Source of the DNA: Lactimicrobium massiliense
GTDB lineage: Bacteria > Bacillota_I > Bacilli_A > Erysipelotrichales > Erysipelotrichaceae
NCBI RefSeq assembly: GCF_900343155.1
Contig: NZ_OUNG01000006.1
Location: 1-64,000, forward strand
Reading direction: 5' to 3'
DNA: 64,000 nt
Shown here: piece after piece, positions 6,181 to 36,800 of the stretch
How positions within the stretch are numbered: the first letter of the stretch is position 1
Layout of the letters: the number at the start of each line of letters is the position of its first letter
The notes under the pieces: model-generated
The model's database searches: none
Told to the model about the DNA's origin: nothing
What the model saw: the letters and a program-made list of their open reading frames with translations, nothing else
Position numbers and translations under genes: made by a program

Positions 6181-6215
6181 GAGTGATACCGGGTAACTGG
6201 CATCACTCTTTTTTA
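6181..6215 (+). terminator. Rho-independent terminator of the MerR operon
   Basis: GAGTGAT at 6181-6187 pairs with ATCACTC at 6202-6208 and is followed by a run of T. It lies just after the cupin pseudogene and ends the redox operon. Confidence 0.8.
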
Positions 6216-6237
6216 AGTGTTCGAAGGAACGCGCAGC

Positions 6238-6320
6238 CATCTCCGCAGGAGATGTTCAAGGGGATTGGGGTACTTCCCCAACGAGCAAAAAATGGCTTTG
6301 TATTACAAAGACACTGCTCG
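6238..6320 (-). ncRNA. Structured element, copy 1 (orphan three-hairpin RNA-like motif)
   Basis: On the plus strand: hairpin CATCTCC/GGAGATG with a GCA loop (6238-6254), an invariant TTCAAGGGGA link, hairpin TTGGGG/CCCCAA (6265-6281), then an outer stem CGAGCA/TGCTCG (6282-6287 with 6315-6320) enclosing hairpin CTTTGT/ACAAAG (6296-6310). A second copy at 51422-51502 keeps every stem with compensatory base changes, so the fold is under selection. The strand is assigned by analogy with copy 2, which would be transcribed on the minus strand just upstream of a HEPN gene. Here no such gene remains. No known Rfam family was recognised. Confidence 0.55.
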
Positions 6321-6478
6321 CACAGTAACTGATGAGTCGACTTGACAGTACTTTGCTTATTTCGAGATCTCGTAAATATTGTCGTTATCTAGTGCGTCTC
6401 ATGATATAATTCCGTTAGTTGCTTCATGCATAGTTCAGATATAACATCGTGTCTAATTCTGCGAGTTGAGGAAAAATT

Positions 6479-6697
6479 ATGGGTGTTTCGTATAAGAAAC
6501 TTTTCAAATTGATGATTGATCAGGGCGTGAAGAAAAAGGAACTTCATGAGAAGACTGGATTAAGTTATTCAACGCTCCTGAAATTGAAAAATGGGCAAAA
6601 TGTACAGGTTAGCGTCCTTGAAAGAATCTGCAGAGCAATGAATTGCACGTTTGATGATATTGTGGAGATTGATCCGGAAACTTATACGGGAAGGTAA
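6479..6697 (+). CDS. Short XRE/Cro-type HTH regulator
   Basis: A 72-residue single-domain helix-turn-helix protein. KKKELHEKTGLSYSTLLKLK forms helices 2-3 and the end SVLERICRAMNCTFDDIVEI is the typical tail of the Cro/C1 YozG-like subgroup. It is preceded by a TATAAT-like -10 (about 6413) and a CGAGATCTCG palindrome (about 6361), a possible operator. It stands at the head of the first defence island, and a 75-residue homologue stands at the head of the BREX locus at 51.7 kb, so it probably regulates the defence genes that follow. Confidence 0.8.
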   Translation: MGVSYKKLFKLMIDQGVKKKELHEKTGLSYSTLLKLKNGQNVQVSVLERICRAMNCTFDDIVEIDPETYTGR

Positions 6698-6753: not shown

Positions 6754-7045
6754 ATGAAGATATTTGATAATGTAACGAACATCGTTCGAGACGACATGGA
6801 AAAAACGATAAAGCGGAGTAGCAAGGTTTCCGTGGCAGCGGCTTGCTTTTCTATATATGCCTATAGTGAATTGAAGAAGCAGTTCGAAAGCATTGATGAG
6901 TTCCATTTCATCTTCACATCACCGACCTTTGTAACAGAGAAAGCGAAAAAGCAAAAGCGATTAGAGAAGAGAAAGATGTCGTTTTTCCTTATCTAAAGGC
7001 AACAGATGATATTGAAAGAAACGATGTGAAGGTAATTGTAGCGAA
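6754..7045 (+). pseudogene. 5' remnant of a PLD-type SNF2 helicase gene
   Basis: An open frame starting MKIFDNVTNIVRDDMEKTIK and continuing SVAAACFSIYAYSELKKQFE, then FHFIFTSPTFVTEKAKK, matches the N-terminal phospholipase-D-like region of large SNF2-type helicases in restriction loci. It stops after 80 codons at 6996. From about 6930 another frame carries a different, unrecognised segment (KAIREEKDVVFPYLKATDD, then RNDVKVIVAND). The helicase body is absent, so this is the scar of a deletion. Confidence 0.6.
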
Positions 7046-7386: not shown

Positions 7387-7412
7387 GAAGTAGGAAAGTG
7401 AGGCGAACTGGA

Positions 7413-8624
7413 ATGTCAAAAAAGAATGATGACTTTTTTGCAGAGAAGAAGCCATGGTCAGAAGTAAAGGATCAGTTATTATGCTGCTACTTTGTACCGT
7501 ACATGCAGAAAATATTGTATACGCGCAGGCCGTTAGTCTACATTGACTGCTTTGCTGGAAAAGGAAAATTTGATGATGGCAAAGACGGTTCACCTTTGAT
7601 TGCATTGAAGATAATGAAGGATTGCTGTGACAGAACCAGATTAGACCGACTCCCTCGTATAACAGCAAGCTTTATAGACATCAATTATGCTGATGATTTG
7701 CATAAGAACTTGAGCAATTATTCGAATGTTAATATCATTTCGGGCGCATACGAAACCAGCATAGATGGGCTTTTGAAAAATGAAAATGGAAGTAACGTTT
7801 TTCTGTATATAGATCCGTATGGAATCAAGGCTTTAAGTTGTAAAAAGTTCGACGCTTTTGCAAATGGCCGTTTTAATACTATAGAGCTCCTTATCAATAT
7901 GAACTCTTTTGGCTTCATCCGCGAGGGCTGCCGCGTCATGGGTAAGAATTTTGAGCTTGATGATGGAACATTTTTTGACGATTTGGTTGAGTATGATTCA
8001 ACACGATTAGATAAATCAGATAAGTCTGTCGAGGCACTGAACGAAATCGCAGGGGGCGATTATTGGAAAGATATTATTGAACAGTATGCTTCTGGGAAAA
8101 TCGACGGTTATAAAGCAGAAGAACATTTTTCGGAACAGTATTGTCAACGGTTAGGTAAAAGTTACAAATACGTGTTGAACATGCCTATAAGAATTCATAA
8201 AAATCAGCATCCAAAATATCGAATGATTCACGCAACAAATCATCCTGATGGGTGCGTACTTATGGCAGATAATATGTGTAATCGCTGGCAACTTCTAAAA
8301 CAGATCCAGGACAGTGGCCAAATGTCCTTATTCCAGGAGGATGTCAATAATAATGTAATTGACCCGGATCAGATAAACACCTGTGTCATAGAACATTTTT
8401 CTCAGTATGACACTTTGACATCTCTCACGGAAGCATTGGCTGCATTTTATGTGAAATATGGACCTTTATGTGCGACAAAGACTATTAGACCTATACTCAC
8501 GAAACTGGAGAAAAGCGGAAAACTTGCCGTTGACCGTCATCCCGCGTTTACGGAGAAAGGAAAGCCGTCTGCTTTTATGACGGAAAACAGCAAGCAGAAG
8601 GTATCAGTCAGGTGGGTGAACTAA
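7413..8624 (+). CDS. tcmP: Three-Cys-motif partner protein TcmP
   Basis: A 403-residue protein starting MSKKNDDFFAEKKPWSEVK. The segment YIDCFAGKGKFDDGKDGSPL resembles a nucleotide or SAM-binding loop, and VFLYIDPYGIKAL follows. This architecture is that of TcmP, a family named for constant genetic pairing with three-Cys-motif radical-SAM-like proteins; a DNA/RNA-modifying or nuclease role has been proposed but not proven. The C-terminal third (about residues 310-400) looks winged-helix-like. Its stop codon directly abuts the start of the partner gene, indicating translational coupling. Confidence 0.85.
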   Translation: MSKKNDDFFAEKKPWSEVKDQLLCCYFVPYMQKILYTRRPLVYIDCFAGKGKFDDGKDGSPLIALKIMKDCCDRTRLDRLPRITASFIDINYADDLHKNLSNYSNVNIISGAYETSIDGLLKNENGSNVFLYIDPYGIKALSCKKFDAFANGRFNTIELLINMNSFGFIREGCRVMGKNFELDDGTFFDDLVEYDSTRLDKSDKSVEALNEIAGGDYWKDIIEQYASGKIDGYKAEEHFSEQYCQRLGKSYKYVLNMPIRIHKNQHPKYRMIHATNHPDGCVLMADNMCNRWQLLKQIQDSGQMSLFQEDVNNNVIDPDQINTCVIEHFSQYDTLTSLTEALAAFYVKYGPLCATKTIRPILTKLEKSGKLAVDRHPAFTEKGKPSAFMTENSKQKVSVRWVN

Positions 8625-9398
8625 ATGAAGGTTGCTGGCTACATTGAAAGAAAGAGCATGCTCTATCAGACGGGCGTCGAGTACGGTGATTACACGATGA
8701 ATCATGTGCTCGGCTGTTCGCATGGTTGTAAATACCCGTGCTATGCCTTCCTGCAGAAGAAGCGGTTCGGCCAGATAAAGGACTACGATGAATGGCGCAG
8801 GCCTTTCCTCGTATCGAATACGATCCAGCTGCTTGATAAGGAAATACCGAAACTGAAGGACAAGGTACAGTCTGTGCAGCTCTGCTTCACAACAGATCCG
8901 TTTATGGTGGACTATCCGGAAATACAGGATATGAGTCTTGCCGCTATCAGGAGGCTCAACAGAGATGGCATCAAATGCTGCGTTTTAACGAAGGGAATCC
9001 TACCTATCGAGCTAAAAGATCTTTACAGCGAGAATGAGTACGGCATTACGTTGATCTCGCTTGATGAGGAATACAGAGAGAAGATGGAGCCGGGAGCGGC
9101 GCCTTATGTAGATCGGCTTGCTGCATTGAAGGCACTACACGACGCGGGATCAAAAACATGGGTAAGCATTGAACCTTACCCTACGCCGAATTTGATCGAG
9201 CAGGATCTGAACAAGATATTGGAAGCAGTCAGCTTTACGGATCGGATTATTTTCGGGCGTACGAACTACAACAAGACGGTTACGGCGTATGCCGCCCACA
9301 AGCATTTCTATAATGAATGTGTGAAAAGCGTGATTGATTTCTGCGAAAGTAGAGGAATTGCGTATCACATAAAAAATAAGACCATAACGGAGGAATGA
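8625..9398 (+). CDS. Three-Cys-motif radical SAM-like protein (Gp37/Gp68, DUF5131-like)
   Basis: The three-Cys motif is C31, C35 and C39 in GCSHGCKYPCYAF. The remaining TIM-barrel-like features are LCFTTDPFMVDYPEI, CCVLTKG and TWVSIEPYP. The family is linked to phage Gp37/Gp68 and to TcmP; the cysteines may bind an Fe-S cluster for radical chemistry. The gene begins immediately after the tcmP stop. The reaction is unknown. Location inside a restriction island suggests a nucleic-acid-modifying role. Confidence 0.85.
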   Translation: MKVAGYIERKSMLYQTGVEYGDYTMNHVLGCSHGCKYPCYAFLQKKRFGQIKDYDEWRRPFLVSNTIQLLDKEIPKLKDKVQSVQLCFTTDPFMVDYPEIQDMSLAAIRRLNRDGIKCCVLTKGILPIELKDLYSENEYGITLISLDEEYREKMEPGAAPYVDRLAALKALHDAGSKTWVSIEPYPTPNLIEQDLNKILEAVSFTDRIIFGRTNYNKTVTAYAAHKHFYNECVKSVIDFCESRGIAYHIKNKTITEE

Positions 9399-9417
9399 AA
9401 GGAGGGACGCTGTCTTA

Positions 9418-10353
9418 GTGGAAAAGTTAATAGATATAGGAAGCACTCCTGTAGCGCCGCTTCTCGATATTCTTCTTCAGGATAAATCGACAAGGAAGAA
9501 CATCATCTGGGCGACGGATACTTACGAGGAATACGGCCACGGGTTTACGGATAAGGAACAGATAGATAGAAACCTGCTTTTGCAGCACGCAGACATCATT
9601 AAGCCGCGTATTCAAAAGTCGCAGGAAGCGCAGGCAGCCCGGACGCGAAAAAAAGCGGAAGTCTTTACTCCGGCATGGCTGTGCAATCAAATGAATAATT
9701 ACTGCGATCAGGAATGGTTCGGCAGAAAAGCTGTTTTTAATCTGGAAAAAGAGGATCATACATGGGACGTGATCGAAGAACCCATCGCATTTCCGAAGAA
9801 AAAAGACTGGAAACGTTACATAGATTCAAGACGGCTGGAAATTACATGTGGAGAAGCGCCATATCTTGTATCTCGCTATGATGTTTCTACCGGAGACTTC
9901 ATTGTTCCAACGAAGCGCAGAATCGGACAATTAGACCGGAAGCTGAGAGTGGTGAATGAAAATACCGCTGATTTTGACGACTGGCTGAAGTGGACGATCC
10001 GCGCATTTGAATCCTGTTATGGTTATGAATATCAGGGAGATAATCTGCTGATAGCGCGAATCAATTTGCTGCTTACATTCATGGACTACTATAAGGAACG
10101 CTGGGAAAAAGATCCGGAGGAAAAGTTGCTTCGGCAGATTACGAACAAGATTGTATGGAATATATGGCAGATGGATGGCCTGAAAGATACCGTCCCTCTT
10201 GGGAAGCCCTACGAAGAATATCATCAGATGACGTTCTTTGATATGTATCCGGACATGGTGGAAAAAGAGGACGAGCCGGAAGCTATCCTATGCAAGATCT
10301 ATGACTGGAGAAAGGATAACTCCATTATTTTTAAGAAGCTGAAGGAGACCTGA
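9418..10353 (+). CDS. Restriction-modification M-like subunit (methylase motif-X part)
   Basis: A 311-residue protein starting at GTG 9418 after a GGAGGGA site. AEVFTPAWLCNQMNNYC (about residues 80-96) matches the FTP motif X/I region of Eco57I-type adenine methylases, and LEITCGEAPYLVSRYDV lies where the SAM loop would be. No NPPY catalytic motif is present, so alone it is unlikely to be a complete methyltransferase. It sits 2 nt from the interrupted DUF1016 gene and upstream of a methylase gene carrying NPPY. Role as a partner or specificity subunit is inferred. Confidence 0.7.
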   Translation: MEKLIDIGSTPVAPLLDILLQDKSTRKNIIWATDTYEEYGHGFTDKEQIDRNLLLQHADIIKPRIQKSQEAQAARTRKKAEVFTPAWLCNQMNNYCDQEWFGRKAVFNLEKEDHTWDVIEEPIAFPKKKDWKRYIDSRRLEITCGEAPYLVSRYDVSTGDFIVPTKRRIGQLDRKLRVVNENTADFDDWLKWTIRAFESCYGYEYQGDNLLIARINLLLTFMDYYKERWEKDPEEKLLRQITNKIVWNIWQMDGLKDTVPLGKPYEEYHQMTFFDMYPDMVEKEDEPEAILCKIYDWRKDNSIIFKKLKET

Positions 10354-10960
10354 TTATGGCGGACAAAAACACCAATCAACTTGTATCGGATAATGCAGAA
10401 TATCAAGATTTACTTCAAAACATCGGAACAGCGTTAAATAACGGCAGGCAGAAAGCGGTCAACCAGATCAACCAGGCCATTGTCGAAACAAACTGGAATA
10501 TTGGCAGATATATCGTTGAGTATGAACAGGCAGGACATGAGAAGGCAGAATATGGTTCAGAAACTTTACAAATGCTGGCCAAGGACCTGACAAATCAGTA
10601 TGGTACCGGATTCAGCCGCAGCAATATCAGCAGAATGCGACAGTTGTATCTTGCTTATCCAAAATGTGCGACGCTGTCGCACAAATTAAGCTGGAGCCAT
10701 TATGTGGAGCTTTTGAAGATAGATGATCCACAGGAAAGATCATTTTATTTGCGAGAGTGTGAGCAGGAAAACTGGGGCGTGAGAGAGCTGAAACGGCAGA
10801 TGAAAAGCATGCTGTTTCAACGATTGATACTGAGTAAAAACAAAAATGAAGTCATGCGTCTGGCGCAGCAGGGACAAATCATTGAAAAACCGGAAGATAT
10901 TGTAAAAGATCCATATGTATTTGAATTTGTTGGCCTTCCGCAATTGCCGGTTTATAAGGA

Positions 10961-10977
10961 AGGCGATCTGGAAACAG
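10961..10977 (+). repeat. 17-bp target-site duplication, left copy
   Basis: AGGCGATCTGGAAACAG, identical to 12418-12434; it encodes part of GDLETA in the nuclease gene. Confidence 0.9.
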
Positions 10978-12417
10978 TGTAATAGTTAAATGAAAATGTC
11001 ACCCCCTTTCTGATTTTTTGAAAATGTCACCCTTTTACGGGATGGATATCAGTATTTGAGTAGAATGCCTCATTGGAGGTGTTCTATGAAGAACGATAAA
11101 GACAAGTCCGGAGCGTTGAAACTTCTGATTCAGAAGCAGAGCGATCCACATATCACTTACCAAGAGATAACTGAGAAAACTGGTTACAGTAAGAGACAGC
11201 TTATACGGCTTGCGGGGGAGCTGAATGAAAAGGATATGCAATCTATCCTTGTTCATGGTAATACCGGCAAGAAGCCAGTAACGACTGCCTCCGACCAAGA
11301 AGTCAGTTACTTAGAAGAATTCAAGAAAGCATATCCAAGCATTACCATAGCACAATTCAGAGATATCTACCGAGAGGATGTAATCTGGGGAAGAGATCCT
11401 GAGAGGAAAGGAGATGCAGCGAAATATGGACTGAAGGATAGAAGTAAATCTTGGTTCAGAGATCTTTTCGTACGAGAAGGTTGGAAGTCACCAAGTGCCA
11501 AGCCGATTCGAACAGATGGTTCGCATGTATCGCATCCAATTCGTAGGCCGAGAGACCGCCGCGGAGAGCTGATCCAGATTGACGGCACTCCATATGATTG
11601 GTTTAACGATGGCAGAGCTTACGCACTGCATCTGGCAGTAGATGATGCAGGAACCGAAGTGCTCGCAGGATGGTTCATGCCTACAGAGTGTACCAGAGGA
11701 TATGCACGCATGATGCGTCTAATCCTTGAAAAGTACGGTGTTCCGATGGCAACATATTCTGACAAGGATTCTGTCTTCAGAAGTGTTAAATCCGGAAAGC
11801 CGTCACAGTTCGCGGACATGCTTGCCCGTCTTGATATCAAGATGATCTTTGCCAATTCACCACAGGCTAAAGGACGTGTAGAGCGGTACAACGGCACTGC
11901 TCAGGGACGCCTTCCGAATGATATCATTCGATTCCATATTCCACATAACTACAACACGCTGAACCGCTGGTTTAATGAGAAGTACATTCGTTATCTCAAC
12001 GCAAAGTTCTCATTCCCGGTTCTGGATCCAGTCGATGCATTTCGTCCGCTTCCGACAGATTTTGATTATTCTGCCGTGTTCTATGCGGAATATCCAAGGA
12101 CCATGAGAAACAATATGTTTTCGATGGGAAACTCATTATATGAAGCCTTTGACGCTGATGGAGTAATGCTCGAAATCTATCAGAAGACACCTATTACTGT
12201 GAAGATTGATGCCTTTACTGAAGAAATGTACATCAATCGATATGGCAAACACTACAAATGCGTAAAGGTGGGCGAGCGTAGAAGAGATCCGATCTATGAA
12301 GCGGACAGTCAGAAGGACGTACAGCGCATCCTCAGTGTTCTGGAAGATCATAGAAAGTAGTATTCGTGACAAAACAGTAACAATTAACAAACGGTGACAA
12401 AATCAAAAAATCTTAAC
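10978..12417 (+). mobile_element. IS1202/ISTde1-like insertion sequence (1440 bp)
   Basis: The element lies exactly between two 17-bp direct repeats. Its ends are imperfect inverted repeats: the left end contains TGAAAATGTCACC and the right end, read inward, TGATTTTGTCACC about 25 bp from the tip. A further GTCACC box recurs inside the left end. It carries one transposase gene. Target duplications of 15-18 bp are a reported feature of the ISTde1 branch of the IS1202 family, which fits the transposase. A clean duplication suggests a recent insertion. Confidence 0.85.
11086..12360 (+). CDS. Transposase, IS1202/ISNCY family (DDE)
   Basis: A 424-residue transposase. The N-terminal HTH (TYQEITEKTGYSKRQLIRLA) is followed by a DDE-type core: LIQIDGTPYDWF with the first Asp, MATYSDKDSVF with the second, and SPQAKGRVERYNGTAQGRLP with the Glu. 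ATG 11086 was chosen because GGAGGT lies six bases upstream; a TTG at 11056 is an alternative. The gene appears intact. It is read in the same direction as the nuclease gene it interrupts. Confidence 0.88.
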   Translation: MKNDKDKSGALKLLIQKQSDPHITYQEITEKTGYSKRQLIRLAGELNEKDMQSILVHGNTGKKPVTTASDQEVSYLEEFKKAYPSITIAQFRDIYREDVIWGRDPERKGDAAKYGLKDRSKSWFRDLFVREGWKSPSAKPIRTDGSHVSHPIRRPRDRRGELIQIDGTPYDWFNDGRAYALHLAVDDAGTEVLAGWFMPTECTRGYARMMRLILEKYGVPMATYSDKDSVFRSVKSGKPSQFADMLARLDIKMIFANSPQAKGRVERYNGTAQGRLPNDIIRFHIPHNYNTLNRWFNEKYIRYLNAKFSFPVLDPVDAFRPLPTDFDYSAVFYAEYPRTMRNNMFSMGNSLYEAFDADGVMLEIYQKTPITVKIDAFTEEMYINRYGKHYKCVKVGERRRDPIYEADSQKDVQRILSVLEDHRK

Positions 12418-12434
12418 AGGCGATCTGGAAACAG
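12418..12434 (+). repeat. 17-bp target-site duplication, right copy
   Basis: Identical to 10961-10977; marks the right boundary of the IS. Confidence 0.9.
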
Positions 12435-12858
12435 CTTTAATAGACAACCTGAGTCAGTTCCTTCTTGAGCTTGGCAAAGGTTTTACGTATGTCGGCAGAC
12501 AACAGCGCATAAATATCGGCGGTAGAATTTTTAAAATTGATCTCGTGTTTTATCACCGTATTCTAAAATGCTTTGTTCTGATTGATCTGAAACGTGGAGA
12601 AGTACAGCATGAAGACATCGGGCAGATGAATTTATATCTCAATTACTATAGAGAAGAAATGAATACGCCTGGGGATACAGAACCAATTGGCATTGTTATG
12701 GGTGCCTATGAGGATAAACTGATGGTGAAATATGCCACACAGAATATTTCTAATCAGCTTTTTGTCAGCCGCTATCAGCTCTATCTTCCTGACAAAAACC
12801 AGTTAGAAAATGAAATTCGCAGATTTATGGATGCTGATGCTGCAAGGGAGAACTAATT

Positions 12859-13893
12859 ATGGGGAAGAAATTATTCGATTATGTGATAGGAAATCCGCCC
12901 TATCAGGAAGAAACGCCAAACGAGGGAGATAGGAAACCGCCGGTATATAATTTATTCATGGATCAGGTGTATGAAGTTTCAGATGTAGTTGAACTAATAA
13001 CACCGGCTAGGTTTTTATTTAATGCTGGTCAAACTCCAAAGGCGTGGAATGAGAAGATGCTTACGGATTCTCACTTAAAGGTGTTGCACTATGAGCCTGA
13101 TGCTACCAAAGTGTTTCCTAATACCGATATTAAAGGTGGTGTAGCCGTCACTTATCGAGACGAAAGAAATAACTACGGTGAAATAGGAATTTTCACTGCC
13201 TATCCGGAGCTTAATGCAATTATTCGTAAAGTAAAAAAGACTGAGGGCGATAATCCGCGACTCAATACTATTATTGCGTCGCAAGGATTGTATAGGTTTT
13301 CTGCTCAATTATTTAAAGAACATCCGGAGATTGAAACACTTTCAGGTGACGGAACCGGGGCAAAAATTATTTCCAGCATGATGCCAAAAGCTCCGAATAT
13401 TTTTAAAACGGAAAAATTTGATAATAGTATACGAATGCTTGGACGTATCGGAGGGCAACGTGAGTATAGATATATTAGTCGTGACTACATCGAAGAAAAT
13501 CCGTATATTGACTGCTACAATCTATTTCTTCCAGAGGCAAATAACAGCGGGCACTTTGGGGAAACCTTAACTCTTCCAACTATTGGAATGCCAGGTGATG
13601 GGAGTTCAGATACTTTTTTAAGTGCTGGTAAATTTAAAACAAAACAGGAACCGATCAATCTTAGCTTGTATATAAAGACCAAATTCTTTAGAGCGATGCT
13701 CGGAATCAAAAAAGTTACACAACATTGCCCTCCTAAGGTATGGGAAATGATTCCCCTTCAGGATTTCACTCCCACTTCTGATATCGACTGGTCAAAATCT
13801 GTCCACGAGATTGACTTACAGCTTTACCACAAGTACGGCCTGGATGAGGACGAGATCAACTTTATCGAAACGCATGTAAAGGAGATGGCATAA
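12859..13893 (+). CDS. Eco57I-family DNA adenine methylase, catalytic (NPPY) half
   Basis: A 344-residue protein whose N-terminus is the catalytic motif IV itself: FDYVIGNPPYQEE at about residues 6-18, followed by VELITPARFLFNAG. The rest resembles the target-recognition half of Eco57I-type N6-adenine methylases. The SAM-binding motif I is missing from this polypeptide and a matching segment is found at the C-terminus of the next gene product, so the enzyme may be assembled from two chains. The stop overlaps the next start (TAATG). It modifies DNA in a restriction-modification system; the recognition site is unknown. Confidence 0.8.
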   Translation: MGKKLFDYVIGNPPYQEETPNEGDRKPPVYNLFMDQVYEVSDVVELITPARFLFNAGQTPKAWNEKMLTDSHLKVLHYEPDATKVFPNTDIKGGVAVTYRDERNNYGEIGIFTAYPELNAIIRKVKKTEGDNPRLNTIIASQGLYRFSAQLFKEHPEIETLSGDGTGAKIISSMMPKAPNIFKTEKFDNSIRMLGRIGGQREYRYISRDYIEENPYIDCYNLFLPEANNSGHFGETLTLPTIGMPGDGSSDTFLSAGKFKTKQEPINLSLYIKTKFFRAMLGIKKVTQHCPPKVWEMIPLQDFTPTSDIDWSKSVHEIDLQLYHKYGLDEDEINFIETHVKEMA

Positions 13894-16800
13894 TGGCTGG
13901 CATCAAGATTAACACCGCCACAAAGGTCATTCCGCAATGCTATGCCTATACGACTCCTGGAGTGCCAAAGCATGATGGCTGGACCAAGATCGGTTTTACG
14001 GAGCGGGATGTCGAAACCCGTATCAATGAGCAGACACATACGGTTGGTGTGGATGCAAAGATCTGGTGGCATTTGCGCGCCGCGTACATGACAGAACCGT
14101 TCGGGACGTTTACGGACAAGGATTTCCACGCCTATCTGAAGAAGCTCGGGATTGCCCGCGAGGAAGGCACAGAGTGGTTCAGGATCACACCGGATACTGC
14201 GCGTGGGGATTTTGTGGACTTCACACAGAATCATGGTGTGGTATCAGAATGTGATGCTGATGCAGTGATCCCGTATAAGCTGCGGGATGAACAGAGTGAT
14301 GCGGTGCAGTCTGCGTATGATTATTTCAAGTCCCATGAGAAGGGCGAATTCTTGTGGAACTGCAAGCCACGGTTTGGGAAAACGCTCTCCGCGTATGACC
14401 TCTGCAGACGGCTTGCGGTTACCAATGTTCTTATTGTGACCAATCGCCCGGCAATTGCCAATTCATGGTATCAGGATTATGAGACATTTTTTGGGCCGCA
14501 GTCCGGATACTTATTTGTCAGCACCGTTGACGGGATCAAAGACCGGAAATATGTCCTGAGCCGTCAGGAGTATCTGGAAAAATTGAGTGCACCTGGAGCT
14601 AATATTAAAGGCTGTATCGAATTTGTCAGCCTGCAGGATTTGAAGGGATCCATCTACTTTGGCGGGAGGTTTGACAAGCTCTCAGAAGTCAGCGCAGAAA
14701 AAGGCCTGACGTGGGATATTCTGATCATCGATGAGGCACATGAAGGGGTAGATACCTACAAGACCGATACAGCATTTAATCACATCAACCGGAAATACAC
14801 GCTTCACCTTTCCGGAACGCCGTTTAAAGCTCTGGCGAATGACAAATTTCCCGAAGATGCCATCTATAACTGGACCTATGCGGATGAGCAGAAGAAAAAG
14901 CGTGACTGGAACAACTCCAGCGAACTGGAAAATCCTTATGAGAATCTGCCCCGTCTGTCGCTCTTCACTTATCAAATGTCTGACATTATCCGAGACAAGG
15001 TGCAGCAGGGAATCGAGCTTGCGGATAACGATATTGAAGAGTATGCATTCGATCTGAATGAATTTTTCAAAACAAATGAGTCCGGGAGGTTTGTCCATGA
15101 CGCGGATGTAGACAAGTTTCTCGATGCACTGACGACCCAGGATAAGTTCCCATTTTCCACGCCGGAGCTTAGAGATGAGTTGAAGCACACGTTCTGGCTT
15201 TTAAATCGCGTGGCAAGTGCAAAGGCGCTTGCAAAGAAGCTGGCGCTGCATCCGGTTTTCAAAGACTATGAAGTGATTCTCGCAGCTGGCGACGGGAAGC
15301 TCGACGATGACGACGAAAATGAAAAGTCTTTTGACAAGGTGACGAAGGCCATCAAGACCTATGACAAGACCATCACCTTGTCCGTCGGACAGCTCACAAC
15401 CGGTGTGACGATCCCTGAGTGGACGGCAGTTCTGATGCTTTCCAATATGGCGAGCCCAGCTCTCTATATGCAGGCGGCTTTCCGTGCGCAGAATCCGTGT
15501 CTCTTCACAGATGGCCAAGGAAACTCTTATCGGAAGAAGAATGCCTATGTCTTTGACTTTGATCCGGCGAGAACGCTGACAATATTCGAGAAATTTGCAA
15601 ACGACTTGATTCCGGGAACTTCTGGAGATAAGGGAGACTTTGATCAAAAGAAGCAGCATGTCCGCGAGCTTTTGAACTTCTTCCCTGTCTACGGCGAGGA
15701 TGAGAACGGTTCCATGATTGAGCTGGATGCAGAGTCTGTGCTTACGATTCCGCGTCATATCCATGCAAAAGAAGTCGTGGAGCGCGGCTTTATGTCGAAC
15801 TTCCTCTTTGCCAATATTTCCGGAATTTTCGGTGCTCCGAAGGAAATCATTGACATCATCAATAATATGCAGGCAATTGAGGAACCTTCTAAGCTTGCAC
15901 CAACAGGTATTGATGAGCATACGGCGGATGATCTTGATCTGAACGACGAAGGAGAGGTTGAGATTCCACATGAGCAGGTAATCGGAACAGCCAGCGAATT
16001 GTTCGGCGACAAGGTATACAGTGATGTAGATGAACGACTGGAGCAAGCTGTGGAAGGCATTACAGAAGAGCATGCGCAGAATCCTAATCCGAAGAATGAT
16101 GAACTTGCGACGCTCCGTGAGAAATTTTCTAAGCCAATTGCAGATACACTGATCGAGACCGCCCGTCAGCAATATGGCAAGGATCTGAAGAAGTCTACGC
16201 AGAGTCAGCTTGAACGCAAGATACATGAGACTACAGATACCGTCGTAAACCGTGAATACGGTGATTACAAAATCCGGGATCATCAGCTTGAGAAGGAACA
16301 GAATGATAAAGTTGCCGAGGCGCAAAAATCAGGTGCTTCCATGTCGGAGATTTCCCGTTTGGATCAGGAGTACGAAAAACGCAGAAGCGAGGGCTATCAG
16401 CAGATGGTAGACAATATCCACAAGAAGCTGAACAGCAATGATACCATCAAAAAGGCCGCTGAGACAATCGTGGAAACGGTTGAAACAGAAAAGCGGAATA
16501 ATGAAAAGGACTCGATTGAGGGAAGTGTCCGCGATCATCTGCGCGGCTTCTCCCGCACGATCCCGGCCTTCCTGATGGCTTATGGCGATGAAAACACAAC
16601 GCTCTCCAATTTTGATTCTCTGGTTCCGGCAGATGTTTTCTGGGAAGTTACGGTGAATCCGCATGGTGTCGGGGTGTCTCTTGACCAGTTCCGGATGCTT
16701 CGCGATGGAGGTGACTATTATCAAAAAGATGAACAGGGCAATGAAATCCGGGATGAAGCGCATAAGAAGCATTTTGAGGGACATCTGTTTGATGAAGTTG

Positions 16801-17306
16801 TATTTAACGATGCTGTCGGAGAATTCATGAAGAAGCGTCGGGAGCTTGCAGATTATTTTGATGCATCCCACAAAGGTGACATCTTTGACTACATTCCGCC
16901 GCAGAGAACCAACCAGATCTTTACGCCAAAGCGCGTCGTGAAGGATATGGTGGATCGGCTGGAAAAAGAGAATCCTGGCTGCTTTGATGATCCGGATGCT
17001 ACATTCGCCGACCTCTATATGAAGTCCGGCATGTATATAACAGAGATCGTCACACGGTTGTATCAGAGCAGGCATATGAAGGCGCTCTTCCCGGATGACA
17101 TGGAAAGGCTGAATCACATCTTCGCGAAACAGGTATATGGCTGCGCACCTACAGAAATCATCTACCGTATTTGCCTGCGCTACATACTTGGATTTAACAA
17201 CGAGATTCACATTGAGAAGAACAATATCAAACTCTGCGATACGCTCCAGTTTGCAAAAGATGGAACGCTGGAGACAGAACTTGAGAAGATATTCGACTTC
17301 AATTAA
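13893..17306 (+). CDS. GIY-YIG nuclease / DEAD-like helicase / methylase-domain fusion
   Basis: An 1137-residue multidomain protein. Residues about 15-110 are a T5orf172-type GIY-YIG domain (CYAYTTPGVPKHDGWTKIGF). A superfamily 2 helicase follows: a variant P-loop CKPRFGKT (about 157-164), IIDEAHEG and LSGTPF, then QLTTGVTIPEW in the second RecA lobe. A charged linker spans about 680-880. The C-terminus (about 1000-1137) has a methylase start, QIFTPKRVVKDMVDRLE and DLYMKSGMYITEIVTRLYQ, equivalent to motifs X and I but ending before an NPPY motif. That motif is in the gene just upstream. It probably translocates and cleaves unmodified DNA. Confidence 0.82.
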   Translation: MAGIKINTATKVIPQCYAYTTPGVPKHDGWTKIGFTERDVETRINEQTHTVGVDAKIWWHLRAAYMTEPFGTFTDKDFHAYLKKLGIAREEGTEWFRITPDTARGDFVDFTQNHGVVSECDADAVIPYKLRDEQSDAVQSAYDYFKSHEKGEFLWNCKPRFGKTLSAYDLCRRLAVTNVLIVTNRPAIANSWYQDYETFFGPQSGYLFVSTVDGIKDRKYVLSRQEYLEKLSAPGANIKGCIEFVSLQDLKGSIYFGGRFDKLSEVSAEKGLTWDILIIDEAHEGVDTYKTDTAFNHINRKYTLHLSGTPFKALANDKFPEDAIYNWTYADEQKKKRDWNNSSELENPYENLPRLSLFTYQMSDIIRDKVQQGIELADNDIEEYAFDLNEFFKTNESGRFVHDADVDKFLDALTTQDKFPFSTPELRDELKHTFWLLNRVASAKALAKKLALHPVFKDYEVILAAGDGKLDDDDENEKSFDKVTKAIKTYDKTITLSVGQLTTGVTIPEWTAVLMLSNMASPALYMQAAFRAQNPCLFTDGQGNSYRKKNAYVFDFDPARTLTIFEKFANDLIPGTSGDKGDFDQKKQHVRELLNFFPVYGEDENGSMIELDAESVLTIPRHIHAKEVVERGFMSNFLFANISGIFGAPKEIIDIINNMQAIEEPSKLAPTGIDEHTADDLDLNDEGEVEIPHEQVIGTASELFGDKVYSDVDERLEQAVEGITEEHAQNPNPKNDELATLREKFSKPIADTLIETARQQYGKDLKKSTQSQLERKIHETTDTVVNREYGDYKIRDHQLEKEQNDKVAEAQKSGASMSEISRLDQEYEKRRSEGYQQMVDNIHKKLNSNDTIKKAAETIVETVETEKRNNEKDSIEGSVRDHLRGFSRTIPAFLMAYGDENTTLSNFDSLVPADVFWEVTVNPHGVGVSLDQFRMLRDGGDYYQKDEQGNEIRDEAHKKHFEGHLFDEVVFNDAVGEFMKKRRELADYFDASHKGDIFDYIPPQRTNQIFTPKRVVKDMVDRLEKENPGCFDDPDATFADLYMKSGMYITEIVTRLYQSRHMKALFPDDMERLNHIFAKQVYGCAPTEIIYRICLRYILGFNNEIHIEKNNIKLCDTLQFAKDGTLETELEKIFDFN

Positions 17307-17330
17307 CTATATGAAAGCAGAGTAAGAGCA

Positions 17331-20300
17331 ATGAAAGGATCAGAAGCACAACTTTTAGGATTTATGGAAGGCGCGAATAACCGTTATGTTATTCCCGTTT
17401 ACCAAAGAAAGTATGACTGGAAAATAGATAACTGCCGCCAGTTGTATGAGGATTTGAAGAAAGTTTCCCGCGACGGTAGAAGCAGCCATTTCTTTGGCAG
17501 CATTGTTTCTCAGGTTATACCAGATGGTAGTAAGATCGAATTTCACATTATCGATGGTCAGCAGCGATTGACGACTGTTACACTGCTTCTCCTTGCCATT
17601 TGCAATATGGTCAAGGCTGGGCGTGTAAAGTCGAACGAGGACGCACTTGAGGATCAGATCATGGAGCGTTTTGTAATTGCCAAGTGGGCAAAGAGCGATG
17701 ACCGCATCAAACTTCGTCCTGTGAAAACAGACCGCAGTGCTTTGGAAAAGCTCGTCGCGGGTGATCCAGAAGAATACGAACCCGCTTCAAACATGACCAT
17801 CAACTACCAGTTTTTTTGTGATCAGATTCTGAAAGAGGAGCTTCCTGTAGATGCTTTGTATGAGGCCATTGGCAAGCTTCAAATCATAAGCATTACGCTG
17901 GACGGCGACGACAACGCACAGCTGATCTTTGAAAGCCTGAACTCGACAGGCCTTGCTCTTACTGAAGGCGACAAAATCAGGAATTACATACTGATGGGGC
18001 TGAAACCGAAGCAACAGGATGAGCTTTACGATAAATACTGGACGAAAATTGAGGAATGCACCGGAAATGATGTCAGCAGTTTTGTCCGGGATTATCTCAG
18101 TATCAAGCAGCAGGTCACACCGACCATCAGCAATGTCTACCAGGCATTCAAAAAATATGTAGAGGCAGAAAAGATTCCGCTGGATTCCCTTCTGGAGGAC
18201 ATGCGGAAGTATGCTCGCATTTACCAAAAGCTGATGACCGGAAAGAGCGGACTGCATAGTCAGAAACTTGACGATTGTATGTACCGCCTGAACCGGCTGG
18301 AGATCACTGTCACAGAGCCATTCTTTATGGAAATTTTCAGGCTGAATCAGGATGGTGAAAAACTCTCCGTCGATGATTTGACGCAGATATTCCTGATCAC
18401 GGAAAATTATCTGTTCCGCCGTAATATCTGTGATGTACCTACCAACGCCCTGAACAAGGTGTTCCTGAACTTGAATCGTGAAGTTATCCGCTACGACAAC
18501 AGTACGAATGACTATGTACAGAAATTCATATATGCTCTGCTTTCAAAGAAGGAAAGCGGCCGCTTCCCGGATGATGAAGAGTTCTCGCAGGCGCTGGCAA
18601 ACAAGGCAGTATACCAGATGCGTGGTAAATATAAGGCGTACCTGTTTGAACGTTTCGAGAACTATGGCACATTGGAAGCAAAGGATGTTTACACGCTTCT
18701 TGATAACGGAACTTATTCCATCGAGCACATTATGCCACAGCATTTAACTCCTGCATGGATTCAGGCGCTCGGACCGGAAGCGGAGGAAATTCACAGCACG
18801 TGGCTTCATCGCCTTGGAAACCTGACGCTCACTGCTTATAACTCAAATATGAGCAATGCCACGTTCCAGGAAAAACGGGATGCCGATCTTGGATATAAAA
18901 AGAGCGGATTGCGCATGAACCAGCTGATAGCAACAAAAGATCACTGGGGCCAGGAGGAAATGCAGGAACGCAGTGACGAGATGGTCAATACTGCGACAAA
19001 TAAAATATGGGCAATGCCGTCTACAACATTTGTTCCGTCGGAAAAAGAATTTGATTCTTGCGCGCTGGATGATGAGGACTTTGAACTGAAGGGCCGGGAT
19101 ATTGTCAAGTACAGTTATCAGAATGCAGAGACACCTGTTTCAAGCTGGGCAGATATGTTTGAACATGTTGTGAAGTATCTGCATGGCGAGGACAAGTCTG
19201 TTCTCTCAACGCTTGCATATAGCACAAGCAGTGACACAGAACTTAGTGGCTACTTCAGTAATGATCCAGATAATCTTCGTGCGCCACTGAAAATTGATGA
19301 AAATGTATATGTTGAAAAGAATACCAGCACGGCATTAAAGATTTCTATATTGAGAAGGTTGTTTGTTTTCTTCCATGCTGATCCGATGGATCTTGTATTC
19401 TATTTGCGCGATTCAGAACAGGATAAGGCGGCAGACAATAACCGCTATGATCTTAGAAGAAGATTCTGGACTTATGCTCTTCCGATTATTCAGGAAGTAA
19501 ACCATGGAAATGGGTGCTTTAAGAATTGTCATCCAAACACCTCCAATATGATGAACGGATATTTTGGAATAGGTGGATTCTGTGTTAGCTGTGCAGCAAA
19601 TCACGATGGCGCTCGAATCGACTTCTATCTCGGGAAGGGTAGTACTGATGAGAATAAAGCCGCATTCGACTATCTGATGGCACATCAGGATGAAATTGAG
19701 GATGCTGTTGGAGACGCCCTTATTTGGAACCGGGCGGATGAAAATAAAGCTTCGTGGATTTCTTATAACCTGAAAGATGTCAGCATTGTAAACGAGGAGG
19801 ACTGGCCGCGTATGGCAAAGTTCATGGCAGAATGGAGTAAGAAGTATCTTGACGTGATTCTTCCTGTTCTGGAAGAACGCTATGGCGGTTATGATCCCGA
19901 TGATTCCAAGAAGGAAACAATTTCCTATCTCTCCAAGAAATGGGCAGAGAAGAAAACAGAAGAAGGCATTATTCAAGCAGACCTGGATCATAGCAGCCGA
20001 AACTGCACACGCTTCAAGACACAACAAATGTCTGCTGTACTTCCAGATATAGAGACACTGAGTTACTGGGGAACGCATAATCACTACTTTTTTGAGATTC
20101 AGAATAAAACCGGCTATTCCGCTTATATTACGATGTGCTTGAATTCCAAAGATCTGACTGTAGAGCAGAAGGCTTTATGTGATCGAATGATTGAGTTATC
20201 TCATTCTCGGACATCATTGAATGGATGGACTTGGAGAACTATATTTCGCTCAGAAACGGTCGATTTTGATGAAGGCCTGACAGAAGAAGATGTATTTGCA

Positions 20301-20417
20301 AAGCTCGATACGGCGCTAAAAGATGTGCTAAGCAAACAAGAAGAATTCTTGAAAAAGATGAAAATGTCAGATGATCTGTTGCAACAGATTAAGGCAGTAA
20401 AGAATTCAGAACAGTAA
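17331..20417 (+). CDS. GmrSD-like DUF262/DUF1524 restriction protein
   Basis: A 1028-residue protein. The N-terminal DUF262 domain shows IPVYQRKYDW and the nucleotide-binding signature IIDGQQRLTT (about residues 73-82). The middle DUF1524 domain carries an HNH-type motif, SIEHIMPQH (about 463-471), with a later RLGNLTL segment. About 450 further residues form an extra C-terminal region not assigned here. The two first domains are those of GmrSD type IV restriction enzymes, which cut modified phage DNA. It is downstream of the helicase gene by 24 nt and probably in one transcript. Confidence 0.82.
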   Translation: MKGSEAQLLGFMEGANNRYVIPVYQRKYDWKIDNCRQLYEDLKKVSRDGRSSHFFGSIVSQVIPDGSKIEFHIIDGQQRLTTVTLLLLAICNMVKAGRVKSNEDALEDQIMERFVIAKWAKSDDRIKLRPVKTDRSALEKLVAGDPEEYEPASNMTINYQFFCDQILKEELPVDALYEAIGKLQIISITLDGDDNAQLIFESLNSTGLALTEGDKIRNYILMGLKPKQQDELYDKYWTKIEECTGNDVSSFVRDYLSIKQQVTPTISNVYQAFKKYVEAEKIPLDSLLEDMRKYARIYQKLMTGKSGLHSQKLDDCMYRLNRLEITVTEPFFMEIFRLNQDGEKLSVDDLTQIFLITENYLFRRNICDVPTNALNKVFLNLNREVIRYDNSTNDYVQKFIYALLSKKESGRFPDDEEFSQALANKAVYQMRGKYKAYLFERFENYGTLEAKDVYTLLDNGTYSIEHIMPQHLTPAWIQALGPEAEEIHSTWLHRLGNLTLTAYNSNMSNATFQEKRDADLGYKKSGLRMNQLIATKDHWGQEEMQERSDEMVNTATNKIWAMPSTTFVPSEKEFDSCALDDEDFELKGRDIVKYSYQNAETPVSSWADMFEHVVKYLHGEDKSVLSTLAYSTSSDTELSGYFSNDPDNLRAPLKIDENVYVEKNTSTALKISILRRLFVFFHADPMDLVFYLRDSEQDKAADNNRYDLRRRFWTYALPIIQEVNHGNGCFKNCHPNTSNMMNGYFGIGGFCVSCAANHDGARIDFYLGKGSTDENKAAFDYLMAHQDEIEDAVGDALIWNRADENKASWISYNLKDVSIVNEEDWPRMAKFMAEWSKKYLDVILPVLEERYGGYDPDDSKKETISYLSKKWAEKKTEEGIIQADLDHSSRNCTRFKTQQMSAVLPDIETLSYWGTHNHYFFEIQNKTGYSAYITMCLNSKDLTVEQKALCDRMIELSHSRTSLNGWTWRTIFRSETVDFDEGLTEEDVFAKLDTALKDVLSKQEEFLKKMKMSDDLLQQIKAVKNSEQ

Positions 20418-26524: not shown

Positions 26525-26908
26525 ATGAATGAGAAAATGACACAGGAACAGCGGCTGGATTATCTCGTGGAGGAATTCAAGAAAGACTCCGTCCAATACA
26601 AGGATTTTCAAACGCCGAATGACACCGAAGGGAAGCGGCGCATTCTCCGGTCGCTTATGAACATCCGTATGCCGAAGGCTCTTCCAGATGATGTACTCGC
26701 TGTTCAGGATCAATATCTGACAGGCAGAGCCGAAGAAAAAGGTATCGTGCGTCTTGCAGACATCCCGGTAATCCGTGATGGTCTGTCTGTTTGGCAGGGT
26801 GATATTACAAGGCTTGCTGTGGATGTTATCGTCAATGCTGCAAATTCTCAGATGCTGGGCTGCTTTATCCCTATGCACACCTGCATTGACAACCCGATAC
26901 TGAACTGA
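26525..26908 (+). pseudogene. Truncated macrodomain gene
   Basis: 127 codons matching the N-terminal half of the complete macrodomain protein encoded at 28133-28915. It contains MNIRMPK, LSVWQGDITRLAVDVIVNAA and NSQMLGCFIPMHTCIDN, then ends at TGA 26906-26908, losing the rest of the ADP-ribose pocket (the GEA and GVFxFP loops). It is a 3'-deleted paralogue, separated from the intact one by the five-HTH gene, suggesting duplication or replacement around that gene. Confidence 0.75.
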
Positions 26909-26973
26909 ATCACACACTTTGTATAAATATTATAAAGAGAGACATACGGACCTTGGTGGAGTTAGTGATTTCA

Positions 26974-28218
26974 ATGCCAGGACCATCCGTTCATGCAAGC
27001 CCCGGCGAAAAGCTGCGGTACTATCGCGAGTTGAAGCAGATGAGCCAGGAGGAACTGAGCCGAAAGCTCGGACATGACAATCTCTGGTATATTGTCAATC
27101 TGGAAAAGGGATTCAATCCGATTTTCTATGAGGATGCCGTGAGATTGGCCGAAGTTCTGAACATTGATCCGGAAGACCTGCTTACCGAATACACAAGATT
27201 CTGCAAGCCCGGCTACGGAGCAAGGATCAAGCGGATCCGGCATGAATATCAGGCCACGCAGGCGGAATTCTCTGAAATGGCAGATACGGAGCGTGCCCAT
27301 ATTGCAGTATGGGAATGTGAGTATCACAACATTCATCCGGAGTACAGCAGCTTCCTGAAACTCAAAAAACTGGCGGAAGATAAGTCAATTGACTTTCAGA
27401 AGCTGATCGATGATGAGGAATACTGCATCGATGATTATGAGCGGTTCATAAAGGCGGACATTCCGAAGAAAGTCCGGAATATCCGTTCTGCTTATGGCAT
27501 GTTCCAGCATGACTTCGCAAAGATGCTCGGATGCATTGATTCCGGAAGCGCAGTCAGTCAATGGGAGTCCGGAAAAGGCAAACCATTGCGAAAGACTTTC
27601 TACAAACTCCGCGATGCGGCAGTTGCCATCGGAATTGATATGGACAAGCTCAATGAAGATCCTGATTTTTACAGAGATGAATATGCTGAGTTTATCGAAA
27701 CAGACTGCGGTGATAAGATCAGGTACATCCGGCTGAAGCATGACTTATATATGGAACAGTTCGGTGAAATGCTTGGCGTCGCCGGAAGCACTGTCGGCCA
27801 ATGGGAGTCCGGAAACAGTATCCCGACAAAGGTTTGGTTTCCGGAGATAAAGAAAGCTGCCGAAAAGGTTGGAATCGATCTGGACAGTCTTAACGGACAT
27901 CCGGAAATCTATAAGGATCCATATACAGAACTGATCCAGAAGCAGGATTCCTCCGCATGGGTGAGAAGAATCAGAAAAGAGAGCGGTCTTACGATTGAAG
28001 ACTTTGCTCGTTACATCGGCGTGAGTACAACTGCCGTATGGCAGTGGGAAACAGATAAGAAATGCCGGAAACCGGGAAGACGGTCCTTTGACAAGATCGT
28101 TGAAATAGCAGTCATGAAAGGAATTGATATCTATGACACATGGAGAACAGAGACGGTGGCTGATCCAACAGCTGCTGGCGGAGGATCCGCAGTATCAGAA
28201 CATTCAGATACCAGATGA
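26974..28218 (+). CDS. Protein with five tandem XRE-type HTH domains
   Basis: A 414-residue protein. Five helix-turn-helix units follow one another: about residues 10-70 (MSQEELSRKLGHDN), 80-145 (TQAEFSEMADTERAHIAVWE), 163-228 (QHDFAKMLGCIDSGSAVSQW), 245-308 (EQFGEMLGVAGSTVGQWESG) and 327-390 (IEDFARYIGVSTTAVWQWET). The last three carry the W-E/T signature of Cro/C1 recognition. Five in one chain is unusual. ATG 26974 is used; TTG 26953 and GTG 26956 are alternatives. The 3' end overlaps the macrodomain gene by 86 nt, and the tail encoded there is low-complexity. Targets are unknown; the neighbour suggests control of the macrodomain gene. Confidence 0.75.
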   Translation: MPGPSVHASPGEKLRYYRELKQMSQEELSRKLGHDNLWYIVNLEKGFNPIFYEDAVRLAEVLNIDPEDLLTEYTRFCKPGYGARIKRIRHEYQATQAEFSEMADTERAHIAVWECEYHNIHPEYSSFLKLKKLAEDKSIDFQKLIDDEEYCIDDYERFIKADIPKKVRNIRSAYGMFQHDFAKMLGCIDSGSAVSQWESGKGKPLRKTFYKLRDAAVAIGIDMDKLNEDPDFYRDEYAEFIETDCGDKIRYIRLKHDLYMEQFGEMLGVAGSTVGQWESGNSIPTKVWFPEIKKAAEKVGIDLDSLNGHPEIYKDPYTELIQKQDSSAWVRRIRKESGLTIEDFARYIGVSTTAVWQWETDKKCRKPGRRSFDKIVEIAVMKGIDIYDTWRTETVADPTAAGGGSAVSEHSDTR

Positions 28219-28915
28219 TATCCAGGAACAGAAAAATCTTCTGAGAGCGCTGATGAACGTCCGCATGCCGAAGAAGATCAGCAAACAATTCCTTGACGTT
28301 CAGGACGAGTATCTGCAGGCAGAAATCGAAGCGGAAGGGATCATAGACGTGGACGACCTGAAGCCTTTCGGAAGTGATCCGAAGATCTATCTCTGGCAGG
28401 GTGACATCACAAGACTTAAAGTAGATGCCATCGTGAATCCGGCAAACAGCAAGATGTTAGGTTGCTTCCAACCTTTACATAATTGCGCGGATAACATCAT
28501 CAATACCAAGGCCGGGATAGCCTTGAGGCTTGAGATGAATCGCATTATGACGATTCAGGGACATGATGAGCCGACCGGCGAGGCTAAGATCACTTCCGGT
28601 TTCAATCTGCCGGCCAAGCATATCCTTCATACGGTCGGTCCGATCTGCTATACAGGCGTACCTGGTACAAGGGAGAAGGCACAGCTGGCTTCCTGCTATC
28701 GTTCCTGCTATACACTGGCTGCGGATTCCGGATGCAAGTCTATTGCCTTCCTTTGCATTTCAACCGGTGTGTTCATGTTCCCGAATAAACCGGCTGCTGA
28801 AATAGCGGTGAAGACAGTGAAGGAATGTATGGCTGAAGATCCACGCATTGAAAAAGTGGTTTTCACAGTCATGAAGGATCTGGACAGGAACTATTACGAA
28901 AATCTGCTGAAGTAA
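28133..28915 (+). CDS. Macrodomain protein-ADP-ribose hydrolase (Zn-macro type)
   Basis: A 260-residue macrodomain enzyme. LWQGDITRLKVDAIVNPANS binds ADP-ribose, followed by MLGCFQPLHNCADNIINTKAG, whose Cys and His residues suit the zinc-dependent macrodomain subgroup; TGEAKITSGFNLPAKHILHT and STGVFMFPNKPAAEIA complete the pocket. The family removes ADP-ribose from proteins and in Firmicutes often pairs with SirTM sirtuins, which are not present here. ATG 28133 lies inside the HTH gene with AAAGGA upstream. It is followed by a terminator. Confidence 0.85.
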   Translation: MTHGEQRRWLIQQLLAEDPQYQNIQIPDDIQEQKNLLRALMNVRMPKKISKQFLDVQDEYLQAEIEAEGIIDVDDLKPFGSDPKIYLWQGDITRLKVDAIVNPANSKMLGCFQPLHNCADNIINTKAGIALRLEMNRIMTIQGHDEPTGEAKITSGFNLPAKHILHTVGPICYTGVPGTREKAQLASCYRSCYTLAADSGCKSIAFLCISTGVFMFPNKPAAEIAVKTVKECMAEDPRIEKVVFTVMKDLDRNYYENLLK

Positions 28916-28942
28916 CCAGACAATTGAATATTTTGGATATAG

Positions 28943-28980
28943 ACGGTCTCGAGCTGCAAAAGGTTCGGGGCCGTTTTTTA
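28943..28980 (+). terminator. Rho-independent terminator after macrodomain gene
   Basis: ACGGTCTCGA (28943-28952) pairs with TCGGGGCCGT (two wobble pairs), followed by a run of six T. Confidence 0.75.
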
Positions 28981-29017
28981 TTGCCAAACATACTGACAAA
29001 GGAAGGAGGAATGACTC

Positions 29018-32352: not shown

Positions 32353-32447
32353 AACAAAGAGGACAAGTGAATATGATTTGAAACACGCAGCTATCTCAAA
32401 AGGGACGCTGCTTATTTTTACCCAAATCCAGAAAGGAGACCTAGAGA

Positions 32448-32981: not shown

Positions 32982-32999
32982 ATAAGGAGGGGTCAACAG

Positions 33000-34388: not shown

Positions 34389-34402
34389 GGGAGGTGAGGT
34401 GA

Positions 34403-36699: not shown

Positions 36700-36800
36700 C
36701 ATTCTAGAGTTTGCATGATAATCTTTACCTAGAAATCAACAACTTAGAATCGGCAGATCATTTGGATTGTTACAGCTGAAAGTACTTAGGGAGCGTTGGT

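Follow-up and report, generated by a model that had tools for sequence, protein, structure and literature searches.

A probable orphan oriT heading a chromosomal defence island in Lactimicrobium massiliense

A structured element at 6.2 kb in a 64,000-nt stretch of Lactimicrobium massiliense DNA (positions 1 to 64,000 of contig NZ_OUNG01000006.1, assembly GCF_900343155.1; hereafter the window) is, to judge from sequence comparison, very probably an oriT of the MOBP type found in pRJ6 and Tn1549. This copy of the element, the orphan, lies about 20 kb outside the resident ICE, beside chromosomal genes and at the left end of a defence island. Such a site is of a known kind, and its unusual feature is where it lies, at the head of defence genes in the chromosome. 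The explanation that best accounts for the whole, and that we consider likely, is that of a MOBP-family oriT nicked by a relaxase, with the HTH-led defence operon as its leading region. If this is right, what looks like a regulatory RNA among defence genes is the place where conjugation starts, such islands have to be read differently, and defence operons would have a direct way of moving, helped by an ICE.

The element and its sister copy

The 2.46-Mb genome holds two copies of the element, both within the window, in the same orientation and 45,184 nt apart, with 45 nt shared at 89% identity (Table 1). The sequence-only reading that first singled out the site had claimed just such an element with a second copy, each roughly 160-220 nt upstream of a short HTH gene heading a defence locus, and both claims hold: a short HTH_26 gene lies downstream of each copy and starts 158 nt (orphan) or 224 nt (sister) from the conserved 3' end. 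It was also right that no HEPN gene follows the orphan copy and that a decayed cupin gene lies there; the left neighbour, read from its translation, is a cupin gene, and stops interrupt the frames read. Its description of the stems as independent in sequence stands for hairpin 1 and partly for hairpin 3, whose outer stem differs between orphan and sister by one compensated pair (CGAGCA/TGCTCG vs CAAGCA/TGCTTG), but fails for the middle hairpin, TTGGGG..CCCCAA, which is invariant. The useful extent of the orphan element is about 6209-6335, a little wider than the 6238-6320 first outlined.

Table 1. Features of the window, with the basis for each assignment
Feature	Position	Strand	Basis or remarks
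Putative orphan oriT, hairpins and presumed nick included	6209..6335	+	94.5% identity over 128 nt to metagenome contig G315; structure support from 34 sequences; nick-string match
Upstream hairpin GTGTTC/GAACGC	6217..6232	+	Single-strand DNA fold; outside the counted structure
Hairpin 1 CATCTCC/GGAGATG	6238..6254	+	Fold; sequence varies among members
Hairpin 2 TTGGGG/CCCCAA, invariant core	6265..6281	+	34-row alignment
Hairpin 3	6282..6320	+	Outer stem CGAGCA/TGCTCG (6282-6287 with 6315-6320) around CTTTGT/ACAAAG (6296-6301 with 6305-6310)
Presumed nick TGCTCG|C	between 6320 and 6321	+	Alignment with the pRJ6 and Tn1549 nic sites (available part of PMC7755788); nicking is a prediction
Extended -10-like site TGATATAAT, candidate promoter of the HTH operon, 3' of the nick	6402..6410	+	Pattern reading only
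HTH_26 regulator heading the defence island	6479..6697	+	Pfam HTH_26, E 2.5e-18
SNF2-type defence gene remnant	6754..6960	+	tblastn, 65% over residues 1-69; gene intact after oriT-HTH in G035
Defence-type cargo	7398..20417	+	TcmP 7398, radical SAM 8625, DUF1016_N 10356, rve insertion element 11056, Eco57I methylase 12859, ResIII protein 13893, GmrSD 17331
ICE	26893..64000, on past the window to about contig 70084	+	Uninterrupted site in G018; serine recombinase 68226-70214
MobA/VirD2 relaxase of the ICE	48798..50186	+	Pfam Relaxase, E 1e-32
HEPN-type gene, RHQMAH motif near the C-terminus	50200..51394	-	Translation; HEPN label from the motif, without a family match
Sister element, putative ICE oriT, presumed nick TGCTTG|C at 51502|51503	51411..51510 (narrower extent 51425-51510)	+	Fold, 34-row alignment, nick string
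ICE cargo	51727..63688	+	HTH 51727, BrxF 51967, BrxC 52399, PglX 56121, helicase 59546, PglZ 62225

Folded as single-stranded DNA, both copies beat all 200 of their dinucleotide shuffles (z -3.57 at 6.2 kb and -8.27 at 51.4 kb), and the four counted helices are all intact in the orphan; the RNA fold of the 6.2-kb region is weaker (z -2.59 on the + strand and -2.11 on the - strand). Support across the family comes from a structure alignment of 34 distinct elements of one length class, in which the four orphan helices are paired in 87.9% of cells as against 43-46% with partners slid, a control in which the structure is also favoured by having been derived from one of the rows. None of 500 shuffles attained the covariation score of 0.237, with kinship among the rows inflating this control, and 12 pairs show changes on both sides. 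All seven pairs of hairpin 1 have changed on both sides, with 74.9% of cells paired, the six pairs of hairpin 2 show no variation in any row, and the outer stem of hairpin 3 is paired in 95.1% of cells. The clearest compensation occurs at the pair next to the outer-stem end by the nick, which is A-T in 20 rows, G-C in 13 and G-T in one. Such compensated pairs would fit a folded single strand, as made at an oriT by conjugative processing. A search of the window returned no Rfam match at the gathering score and no abiF (RF03085) or other credible match at E up to 10.

Relatives in public genomes

An exact-core scan of genomes from 84,980 species returned 96 stretches, a number that is not a census since members with a changed core are missed, that includes chance hits (L026, L055 and L109) and one CRISPR spacer (L082), and in which near-identical loci were not thinned. 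Most of the stretches come from Bacillota (Anaerococcus, Peptoniphilus, Faecalibacterium, Lachnospiraceae and Erysipelotrichaceae), with a few from Bacteroidota. Profile searches, with a relaxase profile grown from two seeds and a MobC profile from one, found a relaxase ORF within 4 kb of the core at 42 of the 96 loci, a MobC-like ORF at 47, and one or both at 52; at the other 44 neither lies inside 4 kb, in part because the stretch ends nearby, and the stretches are at most 8 kb long, so absence is weak evidence. The linkage far exceeds what chance would give: the L. massiliense genome, at 2.46 Mb, has just three relaxase matches. As for L082, an uncultured Clostridia MAG, the element core at about position 3706 sits as a CRISPR spacer between direct repeats, and the oriT family is therefore a CRISPR target.

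A published nick site can be placed on the element by way of plasmids. The Anaerococcus-type element matched 74 plasmid records at an E limit of 1, weak rows included (50 mobilizable, 14 conjugative and 10 non-mobilizable). For example, in pMG2200 the match starts 18 nt from the mobC start, beside a MOBP relaxase and a vanB cluster, and in Staphylococcus aureus pRJ6 it lies 138 nt ahead of mobC and the relaxase. The available part of PMC7755788 gives the pRJ6 oriT as 2061-2299 with nic TGCTTG|CCA, and the Tn1549 nic as RYGCTTG|C; our pRJ6 match at 2228-2254 falls within that oriT, and the sequence continues to AATGCTTGCCAAAC. The 3' end of the element corresponds to the pRJ6 nick string, exactly through TGCTTG|C in the sister (TGCTTG|CCC) and as TGCTCG|CAC in the orphan. 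The orphan's TGCTCG|C has its paired base changed to match. In the alignment, 13 of the 34 rows carry G-C there, and the TGCTCG form is common to other members; pRJ6, Tn1549 and the resident ICE have TGCTTG. Within the scanned stretch, TG[CT]T[TC]GC was found on the expected side in 84 of 103 rows (the 96 stretches, both window copies, two further loci and three plasmids), the 19 without it including shortened stretches, the chance hits L026, L055 and L109, and the spacer L082. The orphan sequence itself had no match among plasmids at E 0.01 and one partial match among phages, in an unannotated 11.7-kb record. Additionally, pRJF2 (L117, 150-245), a 2.97-kb Butyrivibrio plasmid typed non-mobilizable and with no listed relaxase, carries a complete oriT-like element including TGCTTGCC.

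Is the element perhaps a single-strand origin (sso) or another replication hairpin of mobile elements, and not the oriT itself? Sites of the sso kind are found close to oriT in some ICEs and plasmids, and the element has one-strand structure and lies near relaxase genes. Yet the published pRJ6 oriT contains the element, the published nic is its conserved 3' end, and homology breaks exactly at this end in 30 loci, all of which leave the sso reading with very little probability. An integron-like (attC-like) reading was dropped as well, since relaxase linkage and the published nick site account for the conserved end.

A different idea, and one that the sequence-only reading had put forward, is that a former RNA-HEPN cassette lost its protein gene at 6.2 kb, the element being a structured RNA that serves as HEPN partner or antitoxin. 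The sister copy does lie about 30 nt upstream of the start of the minus-strand HEPN-type gene, and RNA antitoxins upstream of AbiF genes exist, RCd22 being the example in the available part of PMC12373285; the likeness, a structured element upstream of an HEPN-type gene, is confined to the sister site. HEPN relatives, however, are found at none of the 96 loci with the element, where the linkage is to relaxase and MobC instead, the window has neither an abiF RNA match nor any other Rfam family, and the element folds better as single-stranded DNA than as RNA. The HEPN-type gene is a passenger between the ICE's relaxase and oriT, outside the element family; its protein had no match in Pfam or PADLOC and none above the cut-off in NCBIfam. 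We regard the lost-cassette reading as extremely improbable. The other suggestion made from the sequence, that the element has its own function, for instance as a recombination-type site, tied to defence-island junctions, comes close to the evidence of an oriT at the left edge of defence cargo.

How would an oriT at this position work? The functional polarity would be that of the + strand, which bears the nick motif, rather than that of a minus-strand RNA. Binding of a relaxase to the hairpins would be followed by a nick in the + strand at 6320|6321. In standard relaxase polarity, the strand 3' of the nick leaves first. The same polarity is given in the available part of PMC11541004. Strand export would thus run from the nick towards the HTH gene, with the HTH-led defence operon as leading region, first into the recipient, a position from which it may benefit. 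The relaxase of the ICE is on the lagging side, its typical placing.

A recurrent layout of oriT, HTH gene and defence cargo

The order seen in the window recurs elsewhere. G029 and G035 contain ICEs of the window ICE's family in which the relaxase precedes the element by about 6 kb and the HTH gene and then cargo follow it. Identity between the two is 87% as far as the oriT and 81% across oriT-HTH; about 16-18 kb of cargo then differ, after which the match resumes. In both, a serine recombinase lies between relaxase and oriT (G029 C66 41586 and G035 C23 27365), the interval that the HEPN gene occupies in the window ICE, and G029 has a second serine recombinase at C66 72615. Among the scanned loci, 11 have an HTH gene just downstream of the element and 10 of these a testable ORF, for which the largest of the first post-HTH ORFs was scored; four of the ten are on the same contigs as G018, G029, G035 and G155. 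Nine carry a defence-type gene after the HTH gene (BrxB, HsdM at four, UvrD/GajB-like at two, a DrmD-like helicase and C3a139), and the tenth, L085, a SIMPL-domain protein. Relaxase-free oriT-HTH blocks besides the orphan are those of G155, with the nearest relaxase about 92 kb off, and G018, a 7.9-kb contig only; these two blocks are 88.9% identical over 574 nt between unlike genes on both flanks.

Could the element then be a cis-acting 5' leader, an attenuator or antitermination RNA of the HTH operon? The spacing from nick to HTH ATG is near constant at 13 loci (129-224 nt, mostly 201-205), always in the same orientation, as a leader would have it. However, pattern reading predicts a -10-like site between nick and HTH gene at all 13, which would leave the element untranscribed and suggests that it is outside the HTH mRNA; the orphan's own site, at 6402..6410, is absent from the output of a simple promoter scan. 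Moreover, an HTH gene lies within 600 nt at 11 of the 96 loci, and most of the 52 relaxase/MobC loci have none after the element. A leader therefore seems most improbable to us.

The resident ICE and the orphan island

An ICE of about 43 kb is inserted in this genome, because a relative, G018, joins the equivalent of 26792-26893 of the window's contig (C1) directly to that of 70084 onward, its match to the first segment passing straight into a match to 70084-71406. A large serine recombinase lies at the right end (C1 68226-70214), and a T4SS coupling protein, a VirB4-like ATPase, an NlpC/P60 protein and the MobA/VirD2 relaxase lie between 34 and 50 kb; the gene order is relaxase, sister oriT (1.2 kb past the relaxase), HTH and BREX. 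The insertion point is the start of a macro-domain gene beside a SIR2 gene (C1 70093-71491, right of the window), and in G018 an oriT-HTH-HsdM locus comes directly after the same SIR2 gene.

The orphan island contains no relaxase, T4SS or integrase, and matches to relaxases, tyrosine integrases and resolvases on the contig are the ICE's own; the relaxase nearest to the orphan is 42 kb off, inside the ICE. No att-like direct repeats were found around the island. A search of the genus with 5210-6180 matched 49 of 70 genomes, outside the own genome just with flavodoxin/cupin gene fragments and no uninterrupted island site. In other words, neither defined ends nor a discrete mobile unit was found for the orphan island. 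Within it, the rve-domain insertion element (11056-12360) is in a segment (10359-12844) that is missing from the matching island of G315, and there is a 17-nt direct repeat at 10961 and 12418. Between island and ICE lies a pair of PIN-domain toxin and RelB-type antitoxin genes (22279-22954, - strand).

The orphan copy may be a dead relic, left with the HTH gene and part of the defence cargo by an earlier ICE of the family that lost its transfer and integration genes, and we put this just short of evenly balanced. Of the first cargo gene only a remnant is left (65% to the SNF2-type gene that is intact in the G035 ICE; a full SNF2-type gene, in L104, matches C3a139), neither integrase nor relaxase remains, and the decay of ICEs to such remnants is described in the available part of PMC5704250. 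Set against decay are the four hairpins and the nick region, which are intact, and the comparison with G315: the block 6209-6335 is 94.5% identical between dissimilar flanks, while the common Eco57I, ResIII and GmrSD genes, which precede the element in G315 but follow it in the window, are about 81% alike. The recurrence of relaxase-less oriT-HTH blocks in G018 and G155, with other genes on both flanks, also argues against a relic.

If the orphan is instead a working oriT, it would be nicked in trans by a relaxase such as that of the resident ICE, and the defence island would be mobilisable, as an iOriT-type hitcher or through Hfr-like export of the chromosome. Present-day mobilisation of this kind, for example by the relaxase on the same contig, seems possible, although we lean against it. 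The orphan's TGCTCG, where the ICE of that relaxase has TGCTTG, counts against it, as the resident relaxase may not accept this form.

Comparison with known systems

Like the oriT of pRJ6 and Tn1549, which is served by a MOBP relaxase and MobC, the element has the core GGGG[AT/CT]TTGGGG..TTCCCCAACAAGC, hairpins, the 3' end TGCTTG|C and a place beside mobC and relaxase genes; the 6.2-kb copy departs from that type in having no adjoining relaxase or MobC gene, in reading TGCTCG at the nick and in heading a defence island. Relaxase-less islands and plasmids with a borrowed oriT are known, as described in the available parts of three sources: iOriT (PMC11389934), MGIs mobilised by SXT ICEs (PMC5704250) and the oriT mimics of pWBG749 plasmids (PMC8136818). 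With these the orphan shares an isolated oriT, the lack of a relaxase of its own and a related relaxase in the same genome. Those systems, however, come with an integrase or a replicon, and their mobilisation is demonstrated, whereas the orphan island has no integrase match of its own, its mobilisation is hypothetical and its defence operon lies directly 3' of the nick. In the leading-region islands of conjugative elements, as far as the available part of PMC11541004 describes them, cargo likewise lies directly 3' of the nick with the relaxase on the lagging side, but theirs are plasmid anti-defence genes and here we find whole defence systems (BREX, type I R-M, Gabija-like and SNF2-type). Among the listed titles and abstract openings of open-licence papers, none describes defence cassettes headed by an oriT in these bacteria.

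Where homology ends around the oriT

In 30 Anaerococcus/Peptoniphilus-type loci, mean pairwise identity falls from 0.90 over the 60 nt preceding the nick, where none of the 435 pairs is below 0.6, to 0.56 over the 60 nt following it, where 60% are (random 60-mers, 0.34). For a reassortment test, the 24 loci with 1000 nt upstream were taken, six with unique downstream sequence were excluded and the remaining 18 were grouped by post-nick sequence; pre-nick identity was 0.922 between groups (95 pairs) and 0.923 within groups (58 pairs). A pair with 99.1% identity on the pre-nick side can drop to 0.59 on the other, and one with 84.5% can rise to 92%. By these comparisons, the sequences on either side of the nick are fully reassorted in this related ICE group. 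In the Erysipelotrichaceae-type group (11 loci) the break lies left of the oriT, with identity of 0.35-0.38 from 120 to 240 nt before the nick.

What produces such breaks? The source could be relaxase-mediated exchange or integrative elements entering the nick. Streptococcus agalactiae IMEs with tyrosine integrases do enter the nic site of an ICE oriT, as the available part of PMC5704250 reports, but the post-nick sequences seen here open with regulator and biosynthetic genes, with no integrase within the stretches seen; insertion into nic, in place of relaxase-mediated exchange, strikes us as a doubtful though real possibility. A broader proposal is that the oriT is an exchange joint for interchangeable cargo, such that cassettes of oriT, regulator and cargo operon are swapped between ICEs and dropped into chromosomes, through relaxase-mediated recombination at the nick or through the oriT-HTH block, and defence systems spread as oriT-headed cassettes in which the newcomer takes the leading place. 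Its basis is the decoupling of the two nick sides in the 30 Anaerococcus/Peptoniphilus-type loci and the sharing of oriT-HTH between changed flanks in the Erysipelotrichaceae type; we think it unlikely as it stands. The oriT reading itself, if right, yields a testable rule: where the oriT core is found, swappable cargo should begin directly on the 3' side of the nick. Nick-precise reassortment would, in addition, suggest how leading-region cargo is exchanged.

The genes after the nick vary by class, and among nine loci inspected several begin with a regulator. In four Anaerococcus/Peptoniphilus-type loci (L019, L021, L025 and L103) the post-nick cargo looks biosynthetic by eye (thioesterase, PPTase-/adenylation-like and shikimate-pathway-like genes), with a DtxR-like regulator first.
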